From assembly GCA_026388095.1 (NCBI GenBank), contig JAPLKL010000065.1:1-34895 (forward strand): DNA of 34,895 nt, given 5' to 3'. Position 1 is the first letter of the stretch, and each line of letters opens with the position of its first letter. Of the stretch, positions 7,411 through 34,423 are shown one piece after another. Under the pieces are notes generated by a model, which searched no databases, had not been told where the DNA came from, and was given only the letters and a program-made list of their open reading frames with translations. This DNA comes from Elusimicrobiota bacterium. Its GTDB lineage: Bacteria > Elusimicrobiota > Elusimicrobia > UBA1565 > UBA9628. The translations under genes and the position numbers were made by a program.

Positions 7411-9756
7411 CTACTCGGCGCTCACCGGCGCCTTCTCCTCCTTCTTGGTCATGAGCGCGGCCAGCACCTTCTCCGGCGTGAAAGGCGGAGCGAAGAGCCG
7501 CACCCCCACCGCGTCGTAGATGGCGTTGGCGATGGCCGGCTGCGGCCCGTTGATGCCGATCTCCGAGACCGACTTGGCGCCGAAGGGGCCGTCGGGCTCG
7601 TAAGTGGGGATGAGGATGGTCTTGAAGGGCGGGGCGTCGCCGGCGGAGTAGATCTTGTAGTTGCGGAAGGAGGAGTTCACCATGGCCCCGGCCGCGTTGA
7701 AGCGCATCTCCTCGGTCAGGGCGTAGGAGATGCCGTTGAGGACCGCGCCGTCGTTCTGGCCCTCCGCGAGGGTCGGATTGATCGCGGTGCCGCAGTCCAC
7801 CGTGGATACGTAGGCGAGGACCTCCACTTGGCCGGTCTCGGTGTCCACCTCCACCTCCGCGAAGTGCGCGGCGAAGGGCGGCGGCGAGCTGGTGGCGAAA
7901 TGCGAGGCCACGCCCATGATCTGGTGCTGGTCGTGGTAGTAGAACGCGGTGTTGGCCACCTCGGAGAGGGCGCAGGAGCGGCCGGATTTGCCCACAGCCT
8001 TGCCGTCCTTGAGGTCCAAATCCTCGGGCTTCTCGTCGAGGATATTGGCCGCGACCTTCAGGATCTGCTCGCGGGCGTGCAGGGCCGCCTTCTTGACCGC
8101 GTTGCCGGAGATGAAGGTGGTCGAGGAGGCGTAGGCCCCCACGTCGAAAGGGGTCAGGTCCGTGTCCGAGGACAGCACGATGATGTCCTGGACCGTCACG
8201 CCCAGGACCTCGGCCGCGATCTGGGCCAGGACCGTGTCCGAGCCGGTGCCCAAGTCGGTGGCGCCCATGTGCAGGTTGAAGGAGCCGTCCTCGTTCATCT
8301 TGATGGAGGCGGCGGCCATGTCCACCTCCGGGATGCCCGAGCCCTGCATGAGGCAGGCGCAGCCCAGGCCCCGGCGCTTCGCGCCGGTCTGGCCTTGGTT
8401 GCGCTTCTTGCGCTCGTCCCAGCCGAAGGCCTCCAGGCCCTGGATGATGCACTCATCCATGCCGCAAGAGCCGATCTTCTGCTCGATGCCCTCGCGGCCC
8501 TCGCCCATGGCCTTGAACACCGGTGAGCCCTCGCCGGAGCGGATGTAGTTCTTGCGGCGGAACTCGATGCGGTCCAGGCCCAGCTTCTCGGCCATCAGGT
8601 CCATCTGGCTCTCCCAGGCGAAGAAACCCTGAGTGGCGCCGAAGCCGCGGTAAGCCCCGCCCACGGGCAGGTTGGTGTAGACCGAGCGGCCGATGAACCG
8701 GGAATTCTTGGCCTGGTACATGGGCAGGGTGTGGGAGCCCGAGCACATCATGACGGTCAGCGAGTGCGCGCCGTAGGCGCCGTTGTCGCAGTACACCTCC
8801 ATGTGCGCGTCCGTGATGGTCCCGTCCTTTTTGGCCCCGGTCTTGAGCCGGATGACGCAGGGATGCCGGGTGCGCGAGGAGACGAAGGTCTCCTTGCGGG
8901 AGAGCTCGATCTTGACCGGCCGCCGGGTCGCCAAGGTCAGGGCCGCGCAGACCGGCTCGAGCAGGACCTCCTGCTTGGAGCCGAAGCCCCCGCCGATGCG
9001 CGGCTTGATGACCCGGATGGACTTGAGCGGCAGCTGCAGGACCCGGGCCGTGATGCGCCGGCAGTGGAAGGGAACCTGGGTGGAGGTGCGGATGACCAGC
9101 CGGCCGTCGCCGTCGAAGTAGGTGATGGTGACGTGGGGCTCCAGGGCGCAGTGCTGGGCCCACTGGGTCTTGTACCACTGGTCCACGACCACGTCGGCCT
9201 CCGAGAACCACTCGACCTCCTTGACCTCGAAGTCGAACTTGGCGCAGATGTTGTGCTTGGCGTCGGGGATGTTCTTGGAGTCGTCCTCGTCGTGGATGAC
9301 CGGAGCCCCGTCCTGCATGGCGGCCAGCGTGTCGAACACCGCGGGCAGCACCTCGTAGTCCACTTTGATCTTGGCGAGGGCCTCTTCCGCGGCCTCGGCC
9401 GTCTCGGCGGCCACGGCGGCGATGCGGTCGCCCACGTAGCGGGCCTTCTCGCTCAAGACCAGCGTGTCATAGGGCGAGGGCTCGGGATAGCCTTGCCCGG
9501 CCGTGGTGTGGCGCACGCGCGGCAGGTCCTCGTGGGTGAGGACCGCCAGCACGCCCGGCACCTTCTTGGCCGCCCGGGTGTCTATGCTCCTGATGCGCGC
9601 GTGGGCATGGGGGCTGAACAGGATGCGGCCCGTGAGCAGGCCGCGTATGTCCACGTCGTCCGTGAACTGCGCCGTGCCGCAGGCCAGCGCCAGCGCGTCG
9701 ATCTTATCGACCCGGTGGTTGACGACCGTGAAAACCCTCTTATCCGCTACGCCCAT
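7411..9756 (-). CDS. Xanthine dehydrogenase-type hydroxylase, molybdenum subunit
   Basis: This 781-residue protein is the catalytic subunit of a xanthine oxidase-family enzyme, holding the molybdopterin cofactor and hydroxylating an N-heterocycle or related substrate using water. The N-terminal domain has FSPHAHARI and VGDRIAAVAAETAEAAEEA. The large domain has STQVPF, IKPRIGGGFGSKQE and VGGAYRGFGATQ, which line the cofactor site, and ATDLGTGSDTVLAQIAAE. Near the C-terminus FGAKSVSEIGINGPQPAI contains the Glu expected to act as catalytic base. It follows the 2Fe-2S and FAD subunits with a two-base gap, the usual three-gene set. Neighbouring 8-oxoguanine deaminase-like and MoaD-like genes favour a purine substrate, but that is inference; nicotinate- or aldehyde-type substrates cannot be excluded. 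Confidence 0.88.
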   Translation of the reverse strand: MGVADKRVFTVVNHRVDKIDALALACGTAQFTDDVDIRGLLTGRILFSPHAHARIRSIDTRAAKKVPGVLAVLTHEDLPRVRHTTAGQGYPEPSPYDTLVLSEKARYVGDRIAAVAAETAEAAEEALAKIKVDYEVLPAVFDTLAAMQDGAPVIHDEDDSKNIPDAKHNICAKFDFEVKEVEWFSEADVVVDQWYKTQWAQHCALEPHVTITYFDGDGRLVIRTSTQVPFHCRRITARVLQLPLKSIRVIKPRIGGGFGSKQEVLLEPVCAALTLATRRPVKIELSRKETFVSSRTRHPCVIRLKTGAKKDGTITDAHMEVYCDNGAYGAHSLTVMMCSGSHTLPMYQAKNSRFIGRSVYTNLPVGGAYRGFGATQGFFAWESQMDLMAEKLGLDRIEFRRKNYIRSGEGSPVFKAMGEGREGIEQKIGSCGMDECIIQGLEAFGWDERKKRNQGQTGAKRRGLGCACLMQGSGIPEVDMAAASIKMNEDGSFNLHMGATDLGTGSDTVLAQIAAEVLGVTVQDIIVLSSDTDLTPFDVGAYASSTTFISGNAVKKAALHAREQILKVAANILDEKPEDLDLKDGKAVGKSGRSCALSEVANTAFYYHDQHQIMGVASHFATSSPPPFAAHFAEVEVDTETGQVEVLAYVSTVDCGTAINPTLAEGQNDGAVLNGISYALTEEMRFNAAGAMVNSSFRNYKIYSAGDAPPFKTILIPTYEPDGPFGAKSVSEIGINGPQPAIANAIYDAVGVRLFAPPFTPEKVLAALMTKKEEKAPVSAE

Positions 9757-9758
9757 GG

Positions 9759-10283
9759 CTAGTTCCCTCCTTGGGAGGCTTTCAGCCTCTTGGCGGCCAG
9801 GAGCGCCGCCTCGACCTGCTTGACATAGCCCGTGCAGCGGCAGAGGTTGCCGTCCAACGCCCGGCGCACGGCCGGCTCATCCGGGTCCGGATTCTGGTCC
9901 AAGAGCGCTTTGGTCACCAGCACCATGCCCGGGATGCAGAAGCCGCACTGCACCGCGCCGGCCTCCACGAAAGCCTCCTGGATGGGATGGGGATGATTCG
10001 GGTCGCCCAGGCCCTCGATGGTGAGCAGACGGCGGCGGTGGGCTTGGGCCGCGAACATCATGCAGGCCAGGACCGGTTTGCCGTCGAGGAGCACGGTGCA
10101 GGTGCCGCAGTCGCCGTTGTCGCAGCCCCTCTTGACGCCCTTGTAGCCTTCCCGGCGCAGGGCGTCGAGCAGGTACTCGCCCGGGGCCACGGCCCAGGCC
10201 TGCTCCCGGCCGTTGATGTTGACGGTGATGGCGATCTTGCCGTCCTTCGCCTGCAAGACTCCGCGTCCCTTGGTCTTGGCCAT
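9759..10283 (-). CDS. Xanthine dehydrogenase-type hydroxylase, 2Fe-2S subunit
   Basis: This 174-residue protein carries electrons from the molybdenum centre to FAD through two [2Fe-2S] clusters. The plant-ferredoxin-like domain has Cys54, Cys59 and Cys62 in RGCDNGDCGTC and Cys74 in VLAC. The C-terminal helical domain has Cys113 and Cys116 in VQCGFCIPGM and Cys148 and Cys150 in NLCRCTGY. Both cysteine sets are complete. I chose the ATG at 10283 because GAGGTGAGA lies at the right distance upstream; a GTG nine bases earlier is possible but would take in that ribosome binding site. It sits between the FAD and molybdenum subunits, ten bases after the former. Confidence 0.92.
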   Translation of the reverse strand: MAKTKGRGVLQAKDGKIAITVNINGREQAWAVAPGEYLLDALRREGYKGVKRGCDNGDCGTCTVLLDGKPVLACMMFAAQAHRRRLLTIEGLGDPNHPHPIQEAFVEAGAVQCGFCIPGMVLVTKALLDQNPDPDEPAVRRALDGNLCRCTGYVKQVEAALLAAKRLKASQGGN

Positions 10284-10293
10284 TTCTCTCACC

Positions 10294-11145
10294 TCATCCT
10301 TGGAAGACTTCGAGCAGGCAGCGCCGCACCAGGACCCCGGAGGTCCGGCAGGCGTAGGCCTTGGCCGGAGCCCCGGCGGTGAGCGCCTGGAGCTCGGCCG
10401 TTGCCGCGGCCTCGGCCGCGCGCGCCGCGGCCTCGCCGCAGCTCTTGCCGATCAGGGCCGCTTCGGATTCGGCCAGGCGCACGGCCCGGGGCAGGACCGA
10501 GCCGACCACCACGGACGCGCGGCGCACCACGCCGTCCTTCTTCTCCACTGCGACCACGCAGTTGGTGTAGGCCTCCCAGCTGGTCTTGGTGATGGCCAGG
10601 CGCGCGCAGGCGGCCGACCAGTTCCTGGTCTCGGCCGGCACGCGGACCTCCACGACGATGTAGCGCGTGCCCAGCGCGCGCATGAGCCCGGGCTCGAGGA
10701 TCTGCGTGAAGGGGATGGTCTTCTCGCGGCGGCCGTCCGTGCACACCGCGACCGCGTCCAGGGCCAGGAAGACCGGGGGCAGGTTGTTGTGCGGATGGGC
10801 GCGCGCCACATTGCCGCCCACGGTGCCCATGCTGCGGGCCAGGGCGTTGCTCCAATGGCCCGCGGCCTTGGCGATGACGCCGCCCGCCCACTTGGCCAGA
10901 AGCGGAGACACCTCAAGCGACTGGATGGAGCAGAGGGCTCCGATGCGCAGCCCCTTCTTGTCCGCCTGGATGTGCTTGAGCGGCAGGTCCGCCAGATCCA
11001 CCACGGTCTCCACGCTGGGCAGCAGGGCCCGCGACAGCCGCGTGCCCCCGGCCACGACCACGGCCTTGCTCTTGAGGCGGTTGATGAGGCTCGCCGCCTC
11101 CTTGGCGCTGGTCGGGAAGCAGAACTGCTTGATGTTGTTCTTCAT
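10294..11145 (-). CDS. Xanthine dehydrogenase-type hydroxylase, FAD subunit
   Basis: This 283-residue protein is the flavin subunit that passes electrons from the Fe-S clusters to NAD or another acceptor. KAVVVAGGTRLSRAL near residue 30 is the first FAD-phosphate loop, and SMGTVGGNVARAHPHNNLPP near residue 105 is the second, both typical of the CoxM/XdhB family. The C-terminal CO dehydrogenase flavoprotein domain is present, ending in TSGVLVRRCLLEVF. There is no extra 4Fe-4S loop as found in 4-hydroxybenzoyl-CoA reductase. The start lies only nine bases inside the edge of an inverted-repeat element, so its translation start region is partly repeat-derived and no strong ribosome binding site is visible. 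Confidence 0.88.
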   Translation of the reverse strand: MKNNIKQFCFPTSAKEAASLINRLKSKAVVVAGGTRLSRALLPSVETVVDLADLPLKHIQADKKGLRIGALCSIQSLEVSPLLAKWAGGVIAKAAGHWSNALARSMGTVGGNVARAHPHNNLPPVFLALDAVAVCTDGRREKTIPFTQILEPGLMRALGTRYIVVEVRVPAETRNWSAACARLAITKTSWEAYTNCVVAVEKKDGVVRRASVVVGSVLPRAVRLAESEAALIGKSCGEAAARAAEAAATAELQALTAGAPAKAYACRTSGVLVRRCLLEVFQG

Positions 11146-11153
11146 ATCTCTAT

Positions 11154-11330
11154 GGGGTCAGGTCTTGACATTTGACATACGAAGGGGCACTGCTCAGCTC
11201 GCGCCGGGTCCTGTCGGCCCGGTATCCCGCCGGCGGCGACCGCCGCCGTCGGGACGCCCTCCGGGCCGCCACCCGTCGCTGCTTCACACCTGAGCAGTTA
11301 CCGCGAATGTCCAAAGTCAAGACCTGACCC
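11154..11330. repeat. MITE/REP-like element with 15-bp perfect terminal inverted repeats
   Basis: GGGTCAGGTCTTGAC (11155-11169) is the exact reverse complement of 11316-11330. The arms extend inward about nine bases with two mismatches. An inner pair, ACTGCTCAG (11189-11197) and CTGAGCAGT (11288-11299 region), nests inside, and the core is very GC-rich with its own palindromes. No protein is encoded. The GGGTCAGGTCTTGAC sequence resembles ends I recall for REP-associated tyrosine (IS200-like) transposase elements. It separates the MoaD-like gene from the FAD-subunit gene. Confidence 0.7.
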
Positions 11331-11608
11331 TATCCTCCTGAAATGGGAGGGAAGATGTGCAGGACATTGCCCTCCTTGAGCTGCACCTGGTCCAAAGCGT
11401 TGCGGTCGAGGATCTCCGAATCCAAAGCGAGCAGGAACTCGTTGCGCACGATGCCTTTGTCGTCGAAAAGCAGCTTGGCGACTTCGTCGCCGCCCAGATC
11501 GGCCACGCGTCTGACCAGGTCGGATGCGGTATTCCCTTCGACCCAGACCTGATTCTTATTGAGGCGCAAGCGCAAAGTGGTGTAGAGCTTGACCAGGACC
11601 TGAGGCAT
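11330..11608 (-). CDS. MoaD/ThiS-family sulfur carrier protein
   Basis: This 92-residue ubiquitin-fold protein ends exactly in Gly-Gly (IFPPISGG), the residue pair that is adenylated and thiocarboxylated in MoaD-type carriers. MoaD supplies sulfur to molybdopterin synthase. The beta-grasp pattern is readable: VKLYTTLRLRLNKN at the start, a central EFLLALDSEIL region, and VQLKEGNVLHIFPPISGG at the end. It starts directly after the amidohydrolase stop and precedes the molybdenum hydroxylase genes, so a role in maturing that enzyme's cofactor is likely. Its TAG stop uses the first G of the repeat element. It could instead serve another thiolation pathway, since no MoaE is in the window. Confidence 0.78.
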   Translation of the reverse strand: MPQVLVKLYTTLRLRLNKNQVWVEGNTASDLVRRVADLGGDEVAKLLFDDKGIVRNEFLLALDSEILDRNALDQVQLKEGNVLHIFPPISGG

Positions 11609-12976
11609 CTAGGCCGCCTGCTCCAGCATGTCCTGGGAGAGCTTGTTGGCCTTGCGGGCTAGAGCGGGCTCGTCCACGTTGACGAGCCGGCTGTCTTTCA
11701 CGACCTGCCTGCCGTCCACGAAGACATGCTTGGCCTTGTGGCTGGCGCCGCAGAACACCGCGGCGGCCACGGGGTCGGAGAGCGAGCCGGCGAAATCGAT
11801 GCCGCTCAAGTCGAAAAGCGCCAGATCCGCGGCCTTGCCGGGCGAGAGCTCGCCGATGTCGTCGCGGCCCAGGACCTGGGCGCCGCCGCGCGTGGCGATC
11901 CAGAGCGCGTCGCGCGCAGGCATGGAGTGCACGCCGGACTTGACCCGGGCCACGAGCATGGCCTGCCGCACCTCGGCGAGCATGTCGCAGCAGTCGTTGG
12001 AGGCGGAGCCGTCCACGCCGAGGCCCAGGGGGACCTTGTGCTCGAGATACATGCGCGCGGGCGCGATGCCCGAGCCGAGGCGCAGGTTGGAGGAGGGGCA
12101 GTGGGCCACGCCGGTCTTGGTCTTGCCCATGAGCTGGGACTCCGCTTCGTTCATGTGCACGCAATGGGCGAACCAGGAGCGCCCGCCGTCGAGCCAGCCC
12201 ACGGATTCCATGTAGGCCAAGGGCCGCATCTTGTGGCGCTCCAGGCAGTAGGCCTCCTCGTCCAAGGTCTCGGCGAGGTGGGTGTGCAGGCGCACGTCCC
12301 ATTTCTTGGCCATCTGGGCGGAGAGTCTGAGGAGCTCGGTCGTCACCGAGAAGGGCGAGCAGGGGGCCAGGGCGATGCGGGTCATGGCATAGGGCTTGCG
12401 GTCGTGGTATCTGTCGACCAGCCGCTCGCAGTCCTTCATGATCTCGTCTTCGGTCTGGACCACGTCGTCGGGGGGCAGGCCGCCTTTGGACTTGCCGCGC
12501 GACATGGAGCCGCGGCAGGCGTGGAAGCGCATGCCCACCTCGGCCGCGCCCGCGATCTCCCGGTCGATGAGGTCGGCGCTCTGGCCGCCCGGGAAAAGGT
12601 AGAAGTGATCGGAACTGGTCGTGCAGCCCGTCAGCATGAGCTCCCCGAGGCCGACCTGGGCGCTGATGTTGACGCCTTCAGGGGTGACGTGGCGCCAGAC
12701 TTCGTAGAGATAGATGAGCCAGTCGAAGAGCTTGCTGTCCTGGACCGCCGGGAGATTGCGGGTCAGCGTCTGGTAGAGGTGATGGTGGGTATTGATGAAG
12801 CCCGGGAAGACCACGCAGTTCCTGGCGTCTAAGACGAGGTCGGCTTTAGCCTTGATGCCTTTGCCGAGCTTCTTGATGACATTGCCGGCGATAAGGATAT
12901 CGCTGTCTGTTAATTCATCGCGAGTATCATTCATGCGCGCGATGCGCAGGGCGTTCTTGACCAGTATGGTCTTCAT
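11609..12976 (-). CDS. 8-oxoguanine deaminase-like amidohydrolase
   Basis: This 455-residue enzyme belongs to the amidohydrolase (TRZ/ATZ, cytosine deaminase-like) superfamily and most resembles 8-oxoguanine deaminase, which converts 8-oxoguanine to urate. Metal ligands are His64 and His66 in INTHHHLYQ, His231 or His233 in RLHTHLAET, His271 in WFAHCVHM and Asp322 in GLGVDGSASND. Other blocks such as LTRNLPAVQDSKLFDWL, CTTSSDHFYLFP and RGSMSRGKSKGGLPPD also fit that enzyme group. I start at the ATG at 12976 (MKTILVKNAL); an open frame goes 36 codons further, but into a repeat-rich spacer. It heads the molybdenum hydroxylase cluster. Related enzymes act on hydroxyatrazine-type triazines, so the substrate is inferred from resemblance and context. 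Confidence 0.8.
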   Translation of the reverse strand: MKTILVKNALRIARMNDTRDELTDSDILIAGNVIKKLGKGIKAKADLVLDARNCVVFPGFINTHHHLYQTLTRNLPAVQDSKLFDWLIYLYEVWRHVTPEGVNISAQVGLGELMLTGCTTSSDHFYLFPGGQSADLIDREIAGAAEVGMRFHACRGSMSRGKSKGGLPPDDVVQTEDEIMKDCERLVDRYHDRKPYAMTRIALAPCSPFSVTTELLRLSAQMAKKWDVRLHTHLAETLDEEAYCLERHKMRPLAYMESVGWLDGGRSWFAHCVHMNEAESQLMGKTKTGVAHCPSSNLRLGSGIAPARMYLEHKVPLGLGVDGSASNDCCDMLAEVRQAMLVARVKSGVHSMPARDALWIATRGGAQVLGRDDIGELSPGKAADLALFDLSGIDFAGSLSDPVAAAVFCGASHKAKHVFVDGRQVVKDSRLVNVDEPALARKANKLSQDMLEQAA

Positions 12977-18661: not shown

Positions 18662-19999
18662 ATGCCGCCCCTGTCTGAGTTCGCCCGGCTCATCCGCCGC
18701 GCCGGCGTGGTCGGGGCCGGAGGCGCGGGCTTCCCTTCCTATGTAAAGGTCTCCTCCCGGGCCGAAACGGTCATCGTCAACGCCGCGGAGTGCGAGCCCC
18801 TTCTTCAGAAAGACCAGGAGATCCTGGAACATTTCGCTCCGGAGGTCGTCGCCGGCCTCGAATCGGTGGTGTCGGCGACCGGCGCCTCCCGGGGCGTCAT
18901 CGCCATCAAGGAGAAGCACGAGGAACTGGTCAAGCACCTGGAGAAAGCCGTGGCCGGAAAGAAGGCCCTCCGCGTCCACCGCTTGGGCGACTACTATCCG
19001 GCCGGCGACGAATACTGCCAGGTCTTCGAGGTCACGGGCAAGCTCATCCCCATGGGCGGCATCCCGCTCCAGGTCGGCGTCGTGGTCAACAACGTGGAGA
19101 CCCTTTACAACATGGCCCGGGCTCAGGACACCCCGGTGGTGGACACCTTCCTCACCGTGGCCGGAGCGGTCAAATCGCCCTGCACCTTGCGCCTGCCCGT
19201 AGGCGTCTCCATCGCGGAAGCCGTGGCCTTGGCCGGCGGCCCCTCGGCCAAGGACCCCGTGGCCCTGGACGGCGGGGCCATGATGGGCAAGGTGGCCGAG
19301 GACTTCTCCGCGCCCATCACCAAGACCAGCGGCGGCCTCATCATCCTGCCGCGCGAGCATCCCCTGGTGCGGCGCAAGGCCGCGGGGCGGGCCGCTTTCG
19401 ACCGCGCCGGTAAGTCCGCCTGCGACCAATGCACCCTGTGCACGGAGCTCTGCCCCCGCTATCTCCTAGGCTACGACATCCAGCCGCACAAGGTCATGCG
19501 CAGCCTGCTGTTCTCTCCCCCGGACCGCAAGCCCTGGAACCACTGGGCTTTGCTCTGCTGCGAGTGCAAGCTCTGCAGCCTCTTCGCCTGCCCGGAGAAC
19601 CTCAACCCCGGCGACATCTGCGGCTTCACCAAAGGCGACCTCGCGGCCCAGAAGGTCAACTGGAAGAACTCCCCCTTGAACCGCGGCCAGGAGCCGCGCG
19701 CCCATCCCATCCGGCCCTGGCGACAGATCCCGGTGAGCCAACTCAAGAGCCGGCTGGGGCTGGAGGATTACGAGGCCGAGGCGCCCCTGCGCCAGGAACC
19801 CTACGCGCCGGCGCTGGTGCGCATCCCTCTCAAGCAGCACGTAGGCGTGCCGGCCAAGCCCCTGGTGACTGCGGGGCAGACGGTCAAACGCGGTGACGTG
19901 ATCGGCGAGGTCCCCGAGGACCAGTTGGGAGTGCCGGTGCACGCCAGCATCTCCGGCAAGGTGACCGCGGTCAAGGATTTCGTGGAGATAACTGCATGA
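18662..19999 (+). CDS. pduS: PduS/RnfC-like flavin and Fe-S electron-transfer protein
   Basis: This 445-residue protein resembles PduS, the cobalamin reductase of propanediol-utilising microcompartments, and the RnfC/NuoF-like group. AGVVGAGGAGFPSYVK (15-30) is the nucleotide/FMN-binding glycine loop, and NAAECEPLLQKD follows. Two 4Fe-4S sites are complete: Cys254, Cys257, Cys260 and Cys264 in CDQCTLCTELCPR, and Cys299/300, Cys302, Cys305 and Cys310 in CCECKLCSLFACPE. A C-terminal barrel-sandwich (SLBB/RnfC-type) segment ends in VHASISGKVTAVKDFVEI. The ATG lies six bases after TAGAAT (18650-18655), with no ribosome binding site, so the message may be leaderless. Its stop overlaps the PduT-like start. 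It should pass electrons from NADH to the shell protein's Fe-S centre or to a cofactor. Confidence 0.83.
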   Translation: MPPLSEFARLIRRAGVVGAGGAGFPSYVKVSSRAETVIVNAAECEPLLQKDQEILEHFAPEVVAGLESVVSATGASRGVIAIKEKHEELVKHLEKAVAGKKALRVHRLGDYYPAGDEYCQVFEVTGKLIPMGGIPLQVGVVVNNVETLYNMARAQDTPVVDTFLTVAGAVKSPCTLRLPVGVSIAEAVALAGGPSAKDPVALDGGAMMGKVAEDFSAPITKTSGGLIILPREHPLVRRKAAGRAAFDRAGKSACDQCTLCTELCPRYLLGYDIQPHKVMRSLLFSPPDRKPWNHWALLCCECKLCSLFACPENLNPGDICGFTKGDLAAQKVNWKNSPLNRGQEPRAHPIRPWRQIPVSQLKSRLGLEDYEAEAPLRQEPYAPALVRIPLKQHVGVPAKPLVTAGQTVKRGDVIGEVPEDQLGVPVHASISGKVTAVKDFVEITA

Positions 20000-20544
20000 A
20001 CAATGCCATCGGCGGGGTGGAGCTTTCCAGCATGGCGCGCGGCTTCGACGTGACCGACACCATGCTCAAGACCGCGCCCGTCAAGCTCCTGCTGGCGCGG
20101 ACGGTCTGCCCGGGCAAATACATCGTCCTGGTCACGGGCGAGGTCGCCGACGTGCAGGCCAGCGTGGACGCCGGCGGCAACCGCGCCGGCGTCTCCTGCG
20201 TGGACCGCTTCGTCATCCCCAACATCCACCCCGAGGTCATGCCCGCCATCTCCGGCACGGCGCTGGTGGACAAGCTCGAGGCCCTGGGCGTCGTGGAGGC
20301 CTTCTCGATCTCGGCCATGATCGAGGGCGCCGACGCCGCGGTCAAGGCCGCGTCCGTTCGCCTCATCGAGCTGCGCCTGGCCATGGCCATGGGCGGCAAG
20401 GCCTTCGTGACCATGACCGGCAGCGTGGCCTCCGTGGACACGGCCGTGGCCGCGGCCGCGGCCGCGGTGGGCCGCCGCGGGCTCCTGGTCGAGAAGGTGG
20501 TCATCCCGCAGCCCCGGCCGGAACTCTTCACCGAGATGCTCTAG
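19996..20544 (+). CDS. pduT: PduT-like tandem BMC-domain shell protein
   Basis: This 182-residue protein has two bacterial microcompartment (BMC) domains, roughly residues 1-92 and 93-182, and so would form a trimeric pseudohexamer in a protein shell. It aligns with PduT along its length: IGGVELSSMARGFDVTD, ARTVCPGKYIVLVTGE, FVIPNIHPEVMPAISG, then VVEAFSISAMIEGADAAVKA and VVIPQPRPELFTEML. Cys38 in TVCPGK is in the exact position of the PduT cysteine that holds a 4Fe-4S cluster at the trimer pore. The ATG overlaps the PduS-like stop (ATGA), so the two are translationally coupled and likely interact. No other shell or microcompartment enzyme gene is in the window. Confidence 0.88.
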   Translation: MNNAIGGVELSSMARGFDVTDTMLKTAPVKLLLARTVCPGKYIVLVTGEVADVQASVDAGGNRAGVSCVDRFVIPNIHPEVMPAISGTALVDKLEALGVVEAFSISAMIEGADAAVKAASVRLIELRLAMAMGGKAFVTMTGSVASVDTAVAAAAAAVGRRGLLVEKVVIPQPRPELFTEML

Positions 20545-24865: not shown

Positions 24866-25563
24866 ATGATAAAGGCCCCGCCGATGAAAGTCTCCCAGGA
24901 AACGGTCACCTTCAAGGTCTCCGAGCTCGAGCCGCTGCTCTCGCCGCCGCCCATGAACATCCCGGCTTTCGAGCCCGCCATGGTCAAGCTCAAGGACGGA
25001 CAGACCATGGTCATCCGCCCCATCAAGCTGGAGGAGGCGCCCCTGTTCCTCGGCTACATGGAAAAGCTCATGAAGGTCGACCATGACTTCTACGACATCG
25101 TGGGCGCGCGCGTTTACGCCGAGATCCTGGGTTGGGTCCGCAACCGCCTCAAGGACCCCTACCACCTCGTCGGCGCCATCGACGGGCAAGTGGTGGCCTT
25201 CTGCAACGGCCGCCTCATGAACGAGAACATCAACATCAGCCTGCACACCATGGCCTTCCGGCGCGGCCTGCGCGCGGGCGCCATCATGTACTACGCCAAG
25301 TGCGACTACTGCTTCGAGACCCTCAAGCAGAAGGAGTTCTGGGCCACCTACGAGAGCTACAACAGCCGTCCTACCCCTGGCCGGACGTCCAGCACGAGCT
25401 GGGCGGCGCCAAGGTGTTCTATATGACCAAGAGCTACTGGGACAACTCGATCAAGCAGTACCTGGAGCAGATGACCCAGACCAAGCTCGTGCGCCCGGTC
25501 CCGGCCGCCCTGCTCAAGAAGAACGAGAAGCTCATCATGCCGACCAAGCTGGAAGAGGATTAG
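24866..25563 (+). pseudogene. GNAT-like acyltransferase gene with a frameshift
   Basis: The reading frame that begins with a strong GGAGGAGA ribosome binding site and ATG at 24866 encodes MVIRPIKLEEAPLFLGYMEK and YHLVGAIDGQVVAFCNGRLM, resembling a GNAT N-acetyltransferase core. At about 25361-25363 it loses sense and ends in RPTPGRTSSTSW. The -1 frame continues with QPSYPWPDVQHELGG, KVFYMTKSYWDNSIKQYL and ends MPTKLEED at 25563. Restoring a single base near 25362 joins both into about 232 residues. A larger deletion of 4, 7 or more bases is also possible. A TATACT box (24823-24828) lies upstream and a strong terminator follows. It may be a true pseudogene, a programmed shift, or an assembly error. 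Confidence 0.68.
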
Positions 25564-30542: not shown

Positions 30543-32690
30543 ATGTGCGATAACATTGATATGCCTCAAGGCCGCCCCCCCAGCCGGACGCCGCCCAAGC
30601 GGACGTCGCCGCTATGGCGCAGGAGCCTCGATTCCCACTGGGCGATCAATACCACCATACGCTGCCAGCACCGCTGCGTGTACTGCTTCGAAGGCGACCG
30701 GCACGGCCTCAAGGACATCCCTTGCGCCGAGACCAAGGCTCTGCTGGACCAGGCCGCCCGGGAGGTCCCGGCCGTCATCTTCATGGGGGCCGAACCCACC
30801 CTGAATCCTCATCTGCCGGAGCTGGTCCGGTACGCGACCGATCTGGGGCTGGGGGCCAGCATCTCCACCAACGCCCTGCGCCTGGCGGACTGGGACTATC
30901 TCATGAGCCTGCACAAGGCCGGCCTGAAGAACATCGAGTTCTCGTTCCATTATCCGGACGAAAAGGTCTATAGCCGCATAACCCGCGCCGCTCCCGCGGG
31001 CTTCGCCCGCCTGCTCAAGGCCCTGGACAACATCGCGCGCTGGCAGCGGGAATTCGTGCCCCCCGGGCGCGCGCGCTACTTCCAGATCCTGCCCGCCGTC
31101 AACCTCGTGGTCAGCCGCTTCAACGTGGACCGCCTCGAAGAAGTCCTGGGGCATCTGGCCGGACACCTCGACGAAGGCCGCTACGTGGTGACCTGCAAGC
31201 GCCTGGATATGGCTCCGGTCCTGCACGAGGAGTCCTTCCGCCGCTCCATGTACGTGCCCCTCGCGGACCTGCGCCGCTGCCTCTCCCGGCTCGCCCCCCA
31301 GGCGGCCGCGGGGGTCAAGCTCGGGTTCCGGGACTTCCCGCTCTGCGCCATCCCCGGGCTGGAGCGCCTGGACTACGACCTGGGCTATTGGCTCAACGAC
31401 GTGCGGGTCAGGCAGAACTTCTTCCGCCAGGGGCAGATGGTGGACATGTACCCTGAGGAATCGCACGAGGCCCAGCCCTTCGACTGGATCTGCGAGGACT
31501 GCTCCCTCAGCCCGCTCTGCCGCCAGCGCTACCTCTTCCTCCAGGCCGACTCTTCGCCCGAGCACGCCCCGCGCCCCCTGTCGGGGGCTCTGCCCGAGCC
31601 GCTGGCCGCCTGGGTCGGCCGCCAACCCCGGGGCGCGGCGGTCCTGCGCGCGCCGCGCCGCCGCACCGCGCGGGGCTGGGCTCTGGGCTCTCTGCTGAAA
31701 GCCTCCCCGCCCGAGCGCCCCCTGGCCGGCAAGACTTTGTTCTGGGCGCCTCTGGAGCGCGGGGTCATCAGGCTCTCGGCCGGGACGCGCTCCACGCGAC
31801 TGAGCCTGGACCGCGACGGCGAGGGAACCTGGCGTCTCGTTCCGGCACAGGAGGGCCTGCCCGCCTGGGCTGAGCCCGGCCGCGCCCGGCTGCAGGACCT
31901 GCTGCGGCGCCTGCCCGCGCCGCCGCCCGACTGCCTGCCGGAGCCGGCCCTTAGGCCCACGGCCCTGCCTCCCTACTGGGGCAATCCGGCCGGCGCCAGG
32001 GCTCCGTCAGGAAAGCCCGCGGCCCGGCCCAAGCTGCCGCCGCGCTGGGACGGCTTCGTGGGCGGGCTCTTCCTGGAGCGCTGGCTCGCCGCGGCCGGCC
32101 GGGAGCCGGCTCTGCGCGAGGGGCGCCTGGAGCCGTCGGCCGGCGGCCTCATCCGCGCGCATGGGCCGCAGGTCGGAGACGAGGGCGAGTTCGTGGTCAC
32201 TCCGCGCGACGGGCCCAAGAGCTACGGCTTCCTGTGCGGCCCCCTGCGCCTGCAAGCGGACTGGCTCGGCTCCGGCGCCAGCGGCCTGCTCTGGCTGAAA
32301 GCGGCCTACGCGGCTGGCGCGGAGCTGGAAGCCCGGCGGGCCTGGCCGTCCGCGGTGCCTCGGCGGGAGGATTCCTTCCTGGCCCGAGCCTGGCGCATCT
32401 TCGGCGCGGGGCTGGCGCCGCGCGCCGGCGCCCGCTCGGGACTTCTGGGAGGCTGGGTCAGCGACGAGGGGATACAGCTCGACCTGGTCAAGGTGGAGGG
32501 ACGCCCATACGGGATCTTGCTGGTGCCGGAGGCGCTGGCGCAGAAGCCTTACGCCTGCGGCCACGGCATCAGCCTGCAGTACGCGATGCCCCAGGGCCTG
32601 CGGGACGAAAGCCGGTGGCTGGCCATCGTAGACGCCTACGCGCGCGTGCTGACCGGCGGCAAGACACCGGAACGGGGGCCGAAAATATGA
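30543..32690 (+). CDS. Radical SAM protein with long uncharacterised C-terminal region
   Basis: This 715-residue protein has the radical SAM signature Cys41, Cys45, Cys48 in RCQHRCVYCFEG, which binds the 4Fe-4S cluster that cleaves S-adenosylmethionine. FMGAEPTLNPHLPEL (80-94) is the GGEP-type motif and SISTNALRL follows. Cys317, Cys320 and Cys326 in WICEDCSLSPLCRQRY form a CxxCx5C site, probably an auxiliary cluster. Residues 340-715 have no domain I recognise; they mix Pro/Ala-rich links with strand-like segments such as LLGGWVSDEGIQLDLVKV. The first ATG (30543) is used; the ATG at 30561 is also possible. The stop overlaps the QueC-like gene (ATGA), so they almost surely act together. It is much longer than QueE and lacks a QueE-like layout. 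Confidence 0.82.
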   Translation: MCDNIDMPQGRPPSRTPPKRTSPLWRRSLDSHWAINTTIRCQHRCVYCFEGDRHGLKDIPCAETKALLDQAAREVPAVIFMGAEPTLNPHLPELVRYATDLGLGASISTNALRLADWDYLMSLHKAGLKNIEFSFHYPDEKVYSRITRAAPAGFARLLKALDNIARWQREFVPPGRARYFQILPAVNLVVSRFNVDRLEEVLGHLAGHLDEGRYVVTCKRLDMAPVLHEESFRRSMYVPLADLRRCLSRLAPQAAAGVKLGFRDFPLCAIPGLERLDYDLGYWLNDVRVRQNFFRQGQMVDMYPEESHEAQPFDWICEDCSLSPLCRQRYLFLQADSSPEHAPRPLSGALPEPLAAWVGRQPRGAAVLRAPRRRTARGWALGSLLKASPPERPLAGKTLFWAPLERGVIRLSAGTRSTRLSLDRDGEGTWRLVPAQEGLPAWAEPGRARLQDLLRRLPAPPPDCLPEPALRPTALPPYWGNPAGARAPSGKPAARPKLPPRWDGFVGGLFLERWLAAAGREPALREGRLEPSAGGLIRAHGPQVGDEGEFVVTPRDGPKSYGFLCGPLRLQADWLGSGASGLLWLKAAYAAGAELEARRAWPSAVPRREDSFLARAWRIFGAGLAPRAGARSGLLGGWVSDEGIQLDLVKVEGRPYGILLVPEALAQKPYACGHGISLQYAMPQGLRDESRWLAIVDAYARVLTGGKTPERGPKI

Positions 32691-34423
32691 AGGTCGCGGT
32701 CATGCGGCGCGGCCGCACGTTCCACTACGGCCTGCGGCTGGACCCGGACGACCACGAGGAAAGCCGGCGCGAGTTCAAGGACTGCCCGACCCCCTTCCTG
32801 CTGGTCAACCGCGAATACCGCATGTCCTTGCCCAAGTGCTTCCGGGACCTCCATCCTGACGCGCATGCTTTGGCCATCTGGTACGCCTTGCGTCCCGTGG
32901 TGGCCTCGCGGCTGGAGCTTCCTTTCGCGGTCTCTCCGGCCCTGGCGCAGTGGCTCCACCAGAAACACGCGGTGAGACTGACCAACGTGTCCGCCCGCCA
33001 GCGCCCGCGCCGGCTGCCCGATGAAGTCGTGCCGGCGCTGCTGTTCTCCGGCGGGATGGACTCCATGGCCGCCAGCGTCCTCATGCCCAAGGGCACGCAG
33101 CATATCGTCCTGGACCGCATACCGCACCTGCGCCCCGGCGACAGCAAGGATGTGCTTATCGACCTGGCCGTCACCCGGAAGGCCTGCGCCGCGGTCGCCG
33201 CGGCGGGCCGGGCCGTGCACGCCACCGCCGACGACCACGAGTTCCTGTTCTCGCCCTATCCCATGTGGCACTCCGACATGGGCCGCCTGCCCCCCCTGTA
33301 CCTGGCCGATTCCCTGGACCTGAGCACCCTCGACGCCGGAGAAGTCTTCGACGCCACCTTCTTCGGAGGCTACCATGCCGGCGCTTCGAACTGGCGCATG
33401 AAGCGGCGGCCGGGCCAGCCGCCTTCCCGCCGCGTCTGGCACGACCCCGAGGGATTCTGGAGCGCGGTGGGTCTGCGGCGGGCGAACAGCATCTGCGGCC
33501 TCTCCGAGGTGGTGACCACATTGGTGGTCGGCCGCAGCCGCTACCGCGGCAAGTCCTTCTCCTGCTACTATCCGCCCGCGCCCGGCGGGGAGAACTTCTG
33601 CATGCGCTGCGACAAATGCTTCAAGAAGCTGCTCCTACGACACATCGCGGACGGTCAGGAGGTGCCGGAAGCCCTCTTCGAGCGCTTCCTGAGCATCCCG
33701 CGCCTGGCGGCCGTCTTCGCCCGGCCCTACTTCGATTGGCACCACGTGTGGTACTACGTGTTCCAGAAGATGCGCTGCCGGCATTGGTTCTCCCGGGAAT
33801 TGCAGCGGCAGACCCGGCAGGGGCCGGACCTCTCGGTCCTGGAGAAGTGGTATCCCAAGGCCGCGCAGGACATGGAGCCGGCCTACGAGGACATCGTGCG
33901 GGCCAACATCGCCCGCTACGCCGAGACCATGAGCGCGGCGGAGATGACCCGACTGGAGAACCTGGACATCCCGCCTCTGCACGCCCCGCCGCTCAAGGAC
34001 CGGCCGGCATCAGGCCGAGGGCGCGGGCCGGCCCGGGCCCCGGCCGAGCTCTTCCCCGCCGAGACCAAGGCTCTCTTCCGGCTGCTCAAAGCCAAGCTGC
34101 TCGGCGGCCGCCCCACCCTGTGGGGCGGCTACCGCCTGGAGGAGGTCTTCTTGCGGCCTCCGGAGCCCAGCATCTGGTTCCGGCTGAGCCCCGCGCGCCA
34201 CAAAGCGGCCGCGGGTGCCGACGTGGTCGCCATGCTCCAGCGGACCGCCCCGGACGGGCCCAAGCCGCTCCTGCGCCTGGGCGGCTTCGGCATCTGTTTC
34301 CCGGTCGAGGGCCGGGCCCCCAAGGCCCTGCTCGGCCCCATGGCGCGCGGCATCATCGCCGCCCTGGGCGAAGCCCGGCGGGAGCTGGGTCCCGCGGGGC
34401 GGACTTTGTCATCCCCGCGCTGA
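32687..34423 (+). CDS. QueC-like PP-loop ATPase with extra N- and C-terminal regions
   Basis: This 578-residue protein has the PP-loop ATP-pyrophosphatase motif ALLFSGGMDSMAAS (SGGMDS at 121-126), which binds ATP and adenylates a carbonyl. A four-cysteine site, Cys293 in SCYYPP and Cys305, Cys308, Cys311 in NFCMRCDKCFKK, matches the zinc site of QueC (7-cyano-7-deazaguanine synthase) in order and spacing type. Residues 1-110 and 330-578 are extra compared with QueC, which is about 230 residues. These have no recognised domain; a Pro/Arg linker near 440-455 divides the C-terminal part. The ATG overlaps the radical SAM stop. A role in nitrile, amide or thio-group formation together with the radical SAM enzyme is inferred. 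Confidence 0.78.
   Translation: MKVAVMRRGRTFHYGLRLDPDDHEESRREFKDCPTPFLLVNREYRMSLPKCFRDLHPDAHALAIWYALRPVVASRLELPFAVSPALAQWLHQKHAVRLTNVSARQRPRRLPDEVVPALLFSGGMDSMAASVLMPKGTQHIVLDRIPHLRPGDSKDVLIDLAVTRKACAAVAAAGRAVHATADDHEFLFSPYPMWHSDMGRLPPLYLADSLDLSTLDAGEVFDATFFGGYHAGASNWRMKRRPGQPPSRRVWHDPEGFWSAVGLRRANSICGLSEVVTTLVVGRSRYRGKSFSCYYPPAPGGENFCMRCDKCFKKLLLRHIADGQEVPEALFERFLSIPRLAAVFARPYFDWHHVWYYVFQKMRCRHWFSRELQRQTRQGPDLSVLEKWYPKAAQDMEPAYEDIVRANIARYAETMSAAEMTRLENLDIPPLHAPPLKDRPASGRGRGPARAPAELFPAETKALFRLLKAKLLGGRPTLWGGYRLEEVFLRPPEPSIWFRLSPARHKAAAGADVVAMLQRTAPDGPKPLLRLGGFGICFPVEGRAPKALLGPMARGIIAALGEARRELGPAGRTLSSPR

Follow-up and report, generated by a model that had tools for sequence, protein, structure and literature searches.

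A conserved radical SAM/DUF6395 PP-loop gene pair of Elusimicrobiota found in the company of nitrogenase-like and HXS peptide genes

What is the role of two overlapping genes at the end of an Elusimicrobiota contig, one encoding a radical S-adenosylmethionine (SAM) protein and the other a QueC-like PP-loop protein, both with large additional regions? The genes lie on contig JAPLKL010000065.1 of assembly GCA_026388095.1, which we analyzed over its whole length of 34,895 bases (hereafter the window), and an initial annotation had taken them for a coupled pair with a distinct chemistry. On a narrow balance of probability, we regard the pair as a tailoring module of two enzymes, accessory to an expanded pathway that unites the His-Xaa-Ser (HXS) peptide system with nitrogenase-like enzymes.

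The initial annotation described the two genes accurately: coordinates, lengths, strand and ATGA overlap are exact (Table 1), all the cysteines that it listed in the radical SAM protein were found, as were the SGGMDS motif and zinc-site cysteines of the PP-loop protein, and the homologs covering these positions retain them. The first protein is a member of the radical SAM superfamily, based on its CxxxCxxC motif and a Pfam match to PF04055 at residues 35-165 (5.1e-18, 66 bits against a cut-off of 29.5). The second is a member of DUF6395 (PF19932; 9.6e-25, 88 bits against a gathering cut-off of 25) and not QueC. The ratio of nonsynonymous to synonymous substitution rates (dN/dS), measured against two relatives, is 0.26-0.31 for the DUF6395 gene and about 0.39 for the radical SAM gene (0.26-0.40 overall); both genes are thus under purifying selection. 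Together with homologs that reach down to 38% identity, these matches and ratios place the pair beyond chance.

Table 1. Features of the gene pair (positions in the window; residue numbers refer to the respective protein).
Feature	Position	Strand	Basis
Radical SAM gene, 715 aa (P0001)	30543..32690	+	PF04055 match, homolog alignment, dN/dS
CxxxCxxC for SAM [4Fe-4S] cluster (Cys41/45/48)	30663..30686	+	Motif, homolog alignment
Cys268, invariant, probable fourth ligand of auxiliary cluster	31344..31346	+	Homolog alignment
CxxCx5C (Cys317/320/326), twitch/SPASM-like auxiliary cluster site	31491..31520	+	Motif, alignment, PDB fold matches MoaA/BlsE/SuiB
Predicted alpha-beta-alpha domain 1, residues 376-455	31668..31907	+	AlphaFold2 secondary structure; sequence profiles do not show domain
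Predicted alpha-beta-alpha domain 2, residues 502-597	32046..32333	+	AlphaFold2
Predicted alpha-beta-alpha domain 3, residues 612-704	32376..32654	+	AlphaFold2
Start/stop overlap (ATGA) between the genes	32687..32690	+	Sequence
DUF6395 PP-loop gene, 578 aa (P0002)	32687..34423	+	PF19932 match
SGGMDS PP-loop motif (residues 121-126)	33047..33064	+	Kept in 8/8 homologs
DUF6395 domain	33458..33964	+	Pfam profile
QueC-like zinc site SCY...CxxCxxC (Cys293/305/308/311)	33563..33619	+	Motif; profile-profile match to QueC
Predicted C-terminal alpha-beta-alpha domain, residues about 455-572	34049..34402	+	AlphaFold2; relative on radical SAM partner in G006:C186

The pair is present at eight loci in seven genomes, namely Elusimicrobiota and two further genomes, G303 and G334. 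Close DUF6395 homologs occur in five of 57 relatives (window genome counted) and in a Myxococcales metagenome-assembled genome (MAG; G303, locus L065), and screening 379 genomes from the same phylum brought in G334; among records that carry a name, close homologs come from Elusimicrobia MAGs, from the Myxococcales MAG and from a MAG labeled just “bacterium”. Most of the pair genomes come from one family, with three of the five among the 57 relatives belonging to a single genus, and, the genomes being MAGs, an absence may reflect incompleteness. A radical SAM gene adjoins the DUF6395 gene at all eight loci of the close DUF6395 clade, and these radical SAM proteins form one clade in a tree that leaves out G001, whose contig holds only the C-terminal part of the protein. 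At L065 the radical SAM gene is read as two pieces, and in G334 the two genes are convergent and do not overlap, so that the association outlives gene order. Thus, the coupling proposed initially is borne out by recurrence outside this genome, and the pair is a conserved functional unit.

In the window itself only 472 bases remain after the DUF6395 gene, and the company that this unit keeps was read from other contigs and genomes. Nitrogenase-like genes (PF00148 over cut-off) were found in 17 of the 57 relatives, comprising all five with the pair and 12 of the 52 others (Fisher p = 0.0015, uncorrected for relatedness). The window genome has, on contigs other than the window, 15 matches to PF00148 and five NifH-like genes. 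The expectation of PF00148 matches was checked in G303 and G334 and held in both: G303 has four in two loci, one of which (nitrogenase-like D and K genes) adjoins the pair, and G334 has eight in three loci. On contig C95 of G006, the pair (33590-37371) stands between nitrogenase-like operons, near a ferredoxin-carbamoyltransferase-radical SAM fusion. A radical SAM homolog without DUF6395 in G014 lies in a nitrogenase-like cluster, flanked by a carbamoyltransferase-radical SAM fusion and a nitrogenase-like gene. We also noted fusions of ferredoxin, carbamoyltransferase and radical SAM regions, of about 1100-1180 residues, beside nitrogenase-like genes at L040:8279-11614 and L043:12503-16048, and recurrent NifH-like/NifK-like fusion genes (about 770-870 residues) in Elusimicrobiota clusters (L118, L110, L114 and similar).

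The second constant companion is the HXS system, described with the components HxsA, HxsB, HxsC and HxsD (NCBIfam; Haft and Basu, as cited in PMC9062424). HxsB (TIGR03978) was detected in 31 of 59 genomes, including all seven with the pair; six of these score over the cut-off, and in the window genome the gene is split, with each piece under it. The split, at about 13178 in G000:C57:12732-14029 (L076), lies beside an HxsA4 gene with 33 HXS repeats and represents either sequencing error or decay. The same contig, C57, carries HXS repeats and HxsD over cut-off next to nitrogenase-like genes. For G006, the contig of the pair itself (C95) encodes HxsD, HxsB and an HxsA4 of 167 residues containing 31 HXS repeats, the three proteins each scoring above their NCBIfam cut-off, and in G024 HxsB, HxsD and HXS repeats are likewise on the pair's contig; at L065, HxsB is on a different contig. 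Elusimicrobiota HxsA4 proteins consist of a leader ending near LHNSG and an (HGS)n core, mostly with HG(S/Q)W at the end. In G334 we saw no HXS repeat protein next to HxsB, and the number of HGS repeats does not separate genomes with the pair from those without. As a separate observation, the HxsA4 repeat gene of G031 (L158:11111-11427) is frame-shifted within its (HGS)n array.

HxsB accompanies 16 of the 17 relatives with nitrogenase-like genes versus 13 of the 40 without (Fisher p = 1.4e-5), and the two sets of genes share contigs in several genomes; the nitrogenase-like and HXS systems therefore look like one. These figures give a nested order of an HXS core, a nitrogenase-like module and then, in some genomes, the pair. 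This bears on an alternative in which the pair works solely for the nitrogenase-like enzymes, through a small-molecule cofactor or metabolite, and HXS is an independent system that happens to share these genomes. The Myxococcales locus would fit such an arrangement, with the pair next to nitrogenase-like genes and HxsB elsewhere, as would the established F430 pathway, in which an amidation precedes the nitrogenase-like step. However, the strong dependence of nitrogenase-like genes on HxsB and their common contigs speak against it, and we consider it unlikely.

In addition to the SAM cluster motif, Cys268, Cys317, Cys320 and Cys326 of the radical SAM protein are invariant among the homologs that span them and are arranged as in twitch/SPASM enzymes; judging from the alignment, a second iron-sulphur cluster probably has Cys268 as its fourth ligand. 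Where radical SAM enzymes possess a second cluster, they abstract hydrogen and often have peptides or cofactors as substrates. The AlphaFold2 model (mean predicted local distance difference test, pLDDT, 72) has fold matches in the PDB to DesII, BlsE, tetraether synthase, MoaA, SuiB and viperin. We rejected the HXS maturases HxsC and HxsC4 as candidates for this protein: HxsC4, its top NCBIfam match, scores 63 against a cut-off of 500, and HxsC 21.5 against 267.9. No QueE model is among the best 25 of 33 NCBIfam families for the protein, in line with the initial view that it is not built like QueE.

DesII and BlsE, which are among the best of these fold matches, act on sugars, and the pair could instead tailor carbohydrates or lipids, for example by uronic acid amidation, as with WbpG-like amidotransferases, combined with radical SAM chemistry on the sugar. 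A distant DUF6395 gene of Priestia amid polysaccharide genes and the general tendency of carbamoyltransferases to act on sugars are consistent with this. On the other hand, no glycosyltransferase is a constant neighbor of the pair, whose constant companions are the nitrogenase-like and HXS genes, which makes a role in carbohydrate or lipid tailoring quite improbable.

The DUF6395 protein resembles QueC at its zinc site, where its profile matched nine QueC sequences (probability 76, pairwise E 2.3e-5; controls <0.6); the spacing upstream of CxxCxxC is C-x11 in the window and C-x8 in G006b, G022, G024 and G303. At the PP-loop, PF06508 (QueC) gave 10.3 bits, under the gathering cut-off of 22. Canonical QueC is further defined by the motifs YxQxHxxE, VPxRN and YPDC (PMC13329287); each of the three is found in 0/8 pair proteins, versus 7/9, 9/9 and 8/9 QueC controls, respectively. 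Moreover, the window genome encodes a genuine queC (TIGR00364 over cut-off) on another contig and, 0.3 kb after it, a queE candidate that matches NCBIfam QueE models under cut-off. The initial annotation was right that no que genes lie near the pair. All this, with the absence of QueE models noted above, weighs against the pair being a divergent QueE/QueC set for preQ0 or a modified nucleobase, which the PP-loop, the zinc motif and the serial use of a radical SAM and a PP-loop enzyme in preQ0 synthesis might suggest; we rejected this as very improbable, as the initial annotation had done for preQ0. An anti-phage role akin to QatC or Cap9 with a viperin-like radical SAM protein was rejected as well and deserves next to no credence, since PADLOC gave only a weak pVip similarity of the radical SAM core and nothing for the PP-loop protein or the tested neighbors, the viperin model scored far under cut-off despite viperin being among the fold matches, Cap9 was one of two non-significant PDB sequence matches of the PP-loop profile, phages and viral contigs yielded no relatives, and we saw no partner of Qat (QatB) or of cyclic-oligonucleotide-based anti-phage signaling systems (CBASS; a cGAS/DncV-like nucleotidyltransferase, CD-NTase) in the neighborhoods read.

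Structure prediction for the PP-loop protein yielded a poor core (mean pLDDT 43), whose PDB fold search returned nothing at E 0.001, and the alignment profile had no significant match among PDB sequences. Our literature search gave no paper naming DUF6395, a family with no described function.

The additional residues of both proteins, reported initially as belonging to no recognized family, indeed match none by sequence profiles (including the C-terminal 340 residues of the radical SAM protein), but AlphaFold2 predicts small alpha-beta-alpha domains within them. Three such units, each ordered as alpha, four or five beta, and alpha, are predicted in the radical SAM protein and one, spanning residues 458-566 of the model, in its partner. 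Their common order of secondary structure in the models suggests that all four might be homologous; sequence-profile comparison gives no signal for this. In the paralogous pair of G006:C186, the PP-loop protein lacks the C-terminal domain and a relative of that domain ends the radical SAM partner instead (hhalign probability 90, pairwise E 1.4e-6). This movement between partners suggests that the two proteins work together. We also suspected a small domain common to the nitrogenase-like, carbamoyltransferase and radical SAM proteins of the clusters, and HxsD as a relative of the extra domains; profile comparison did not support the former and rejected the latter.

We therefore return to the accessory tailoring module. 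The two proteins would act as one unit, probably a complex, in which the alpha-beta-alpha domains probably serve partner docking or substrate binding. QueC-type PP-loop enzymes work by adenylating a carboxyl or a carbonyl group; QueC then forms an amide and subsequently a nitrile, and Cap9 attaches 7-carboxy-7-deazaguanine (CDG) to an N-terminus (PMC13279940). By analogy, the DUF6395 protein would use ATP to adenylate a carboxyl or carbonyl of its substrate, to which nitrogen or another nucleophile would be attached; installation of a nitrile or amide is plausible. The radical SAM protein, with its putative second cluster, would modify the same molecule by radical C-H chemistry. The module would be a late, optional addition to an expanded HXS peptide pathway that may also use nitrogenase-like reductases, several radical SAM enzymes and the ferredoxin-carbamoyltransferase-radical SAM fusion, whose carbamoyltransferase may modify serine hydroxyls of the HGS repeats. 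For a module added to the HXS pathway, the most likely substrate is HxsA4, the precursor with the (His-Gly-Ser)n repeats, or a compound assembled with it. Of the chemistries listed in the initial annotation, the genomic context favors peptide (or cofactor) tailoring, the missing QueC motifs disfavor a modified nucleobase and the lack of defence-family matches disfavors defence; the chemistry is probably new.

Several points count against this proposal. Side-chain carboxylates are absent from the HGS repeat core, so that DUF6395 would need the C-terminus, a group supplied by another enzyme, or a small molecule, and its target group is the weakest step of the proposed mechanism. The window pair stands alone at a contig end, and its link to the pathway comes from relatives and co-presence; in the window, G001, G022 and G006:C186, the pair lies amid unrelated genes. 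Among the relatives, 16 combine nitrogenase-like genes with HxsB, but only five of these carry the pair, which is thus not essential to that pathway, and a search for a nitrogenase-like subfamily tracking the pair one to one found none. The co-occurrence counts are uncorrected for relatedness in a set where one genus provides three of the five genomes. We know of no identified product of HXS maturation. Finally, the Priestia DUF6395 (26% identity), on a plasmid near polysaccharide genes and with no radical SAM gene, indicates that the family as a whole extends beyond this role.

Elsewhere in the window, molybdenum hydroxylase (xanthine-dehydrogenase-like) subunits and an amidohydrolase form an apparent purine-type catabolic operon (7411-12976). 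An RnfC/PduS-like protein is followed by an apparent tandem bacterial microcompartment (BMC) domain shell protein, PduT-like (18662-20544), with no other microcompartment gene recognized in the window. An acetyltransferase-like open reading frame (24866-25563) stops early and overlaps another of 46 residues, a probable frameshift, and a transposase-like fragment at 1-265 may explain the break at the contig start.

A bolder proposal, which we advance tentatively, is that a (His-Gly-Ser)n ribosomal peptide passes through an assembly comprising nitrogenase-like reductases, carbamoyltransferases, a large number of radical SAM enzymes and the present ATP-using QueC-superfamily/radical SAM pair. If true, no earlier case of nitrogenase-like chemistry would have had a peptide as its substrate, the modified peptides or peptide-borne cofactors would form a class of their own, and both the substrate range of these enzymes and ribosomal-peptide chemistry would widen; our literature search, by the terms tried, found no paper joining nitrogenase-like enzymes, ribosomal peptides and radical SAM enzymes. 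DUF6395 is thereby placed in a pathway context and next to a constant partner, and three puzzles that had been described separately, namely uncharacterized PP-loop enzymes, the nitrogenase paralogs of Elusimicrobia and the HXS peptide system, become parts of one testable system.

Compared with known systems, the DUF6395 protein shares the SGGxDS PP-loop and the C-terminal CxxCxxC zinc site with SCY with the QueC superfamily (QueC, Cap9, QatC; PMC13329287, PMC13279940) and has N- and C-terminal extensions as QatC does, but it lacks the three canonical QueC motifs, has >300 additional residues and occurs in a context that is neither deazaguanine nor defence. Within DUF6395, the pair members always adjoin a radical SAM gene, unlike the distant plasmid member. 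Genomes with the pair contain HxsA4, HxsB and HxsD of the HXS system, which in G006 and G024 share a contig with the pair, and the pair proteins themselves are not HxsB, HxsC or HxsD; to our knowledge no DUF6395 or nitrogenase-like gene belongs to the system as described, and the papers that we found on it mention neither. Elusimicrobia nitrogenase paralogs with suites of radical SAM genes were reportedly noted by Meheust et al. in 2020, and here, too, NifH-, NifD- and NifK-like genes cluster with radical SAM genes. These clusters share the radical SAM partnership of group IV nitrogenase-like enzymes such as IsrBHDK (PMC11423573), but here the nitrogenase-like genes occur in many copies and are tied to HXS repeat peptides and carbamoyltransferase-radical SAM fusions.

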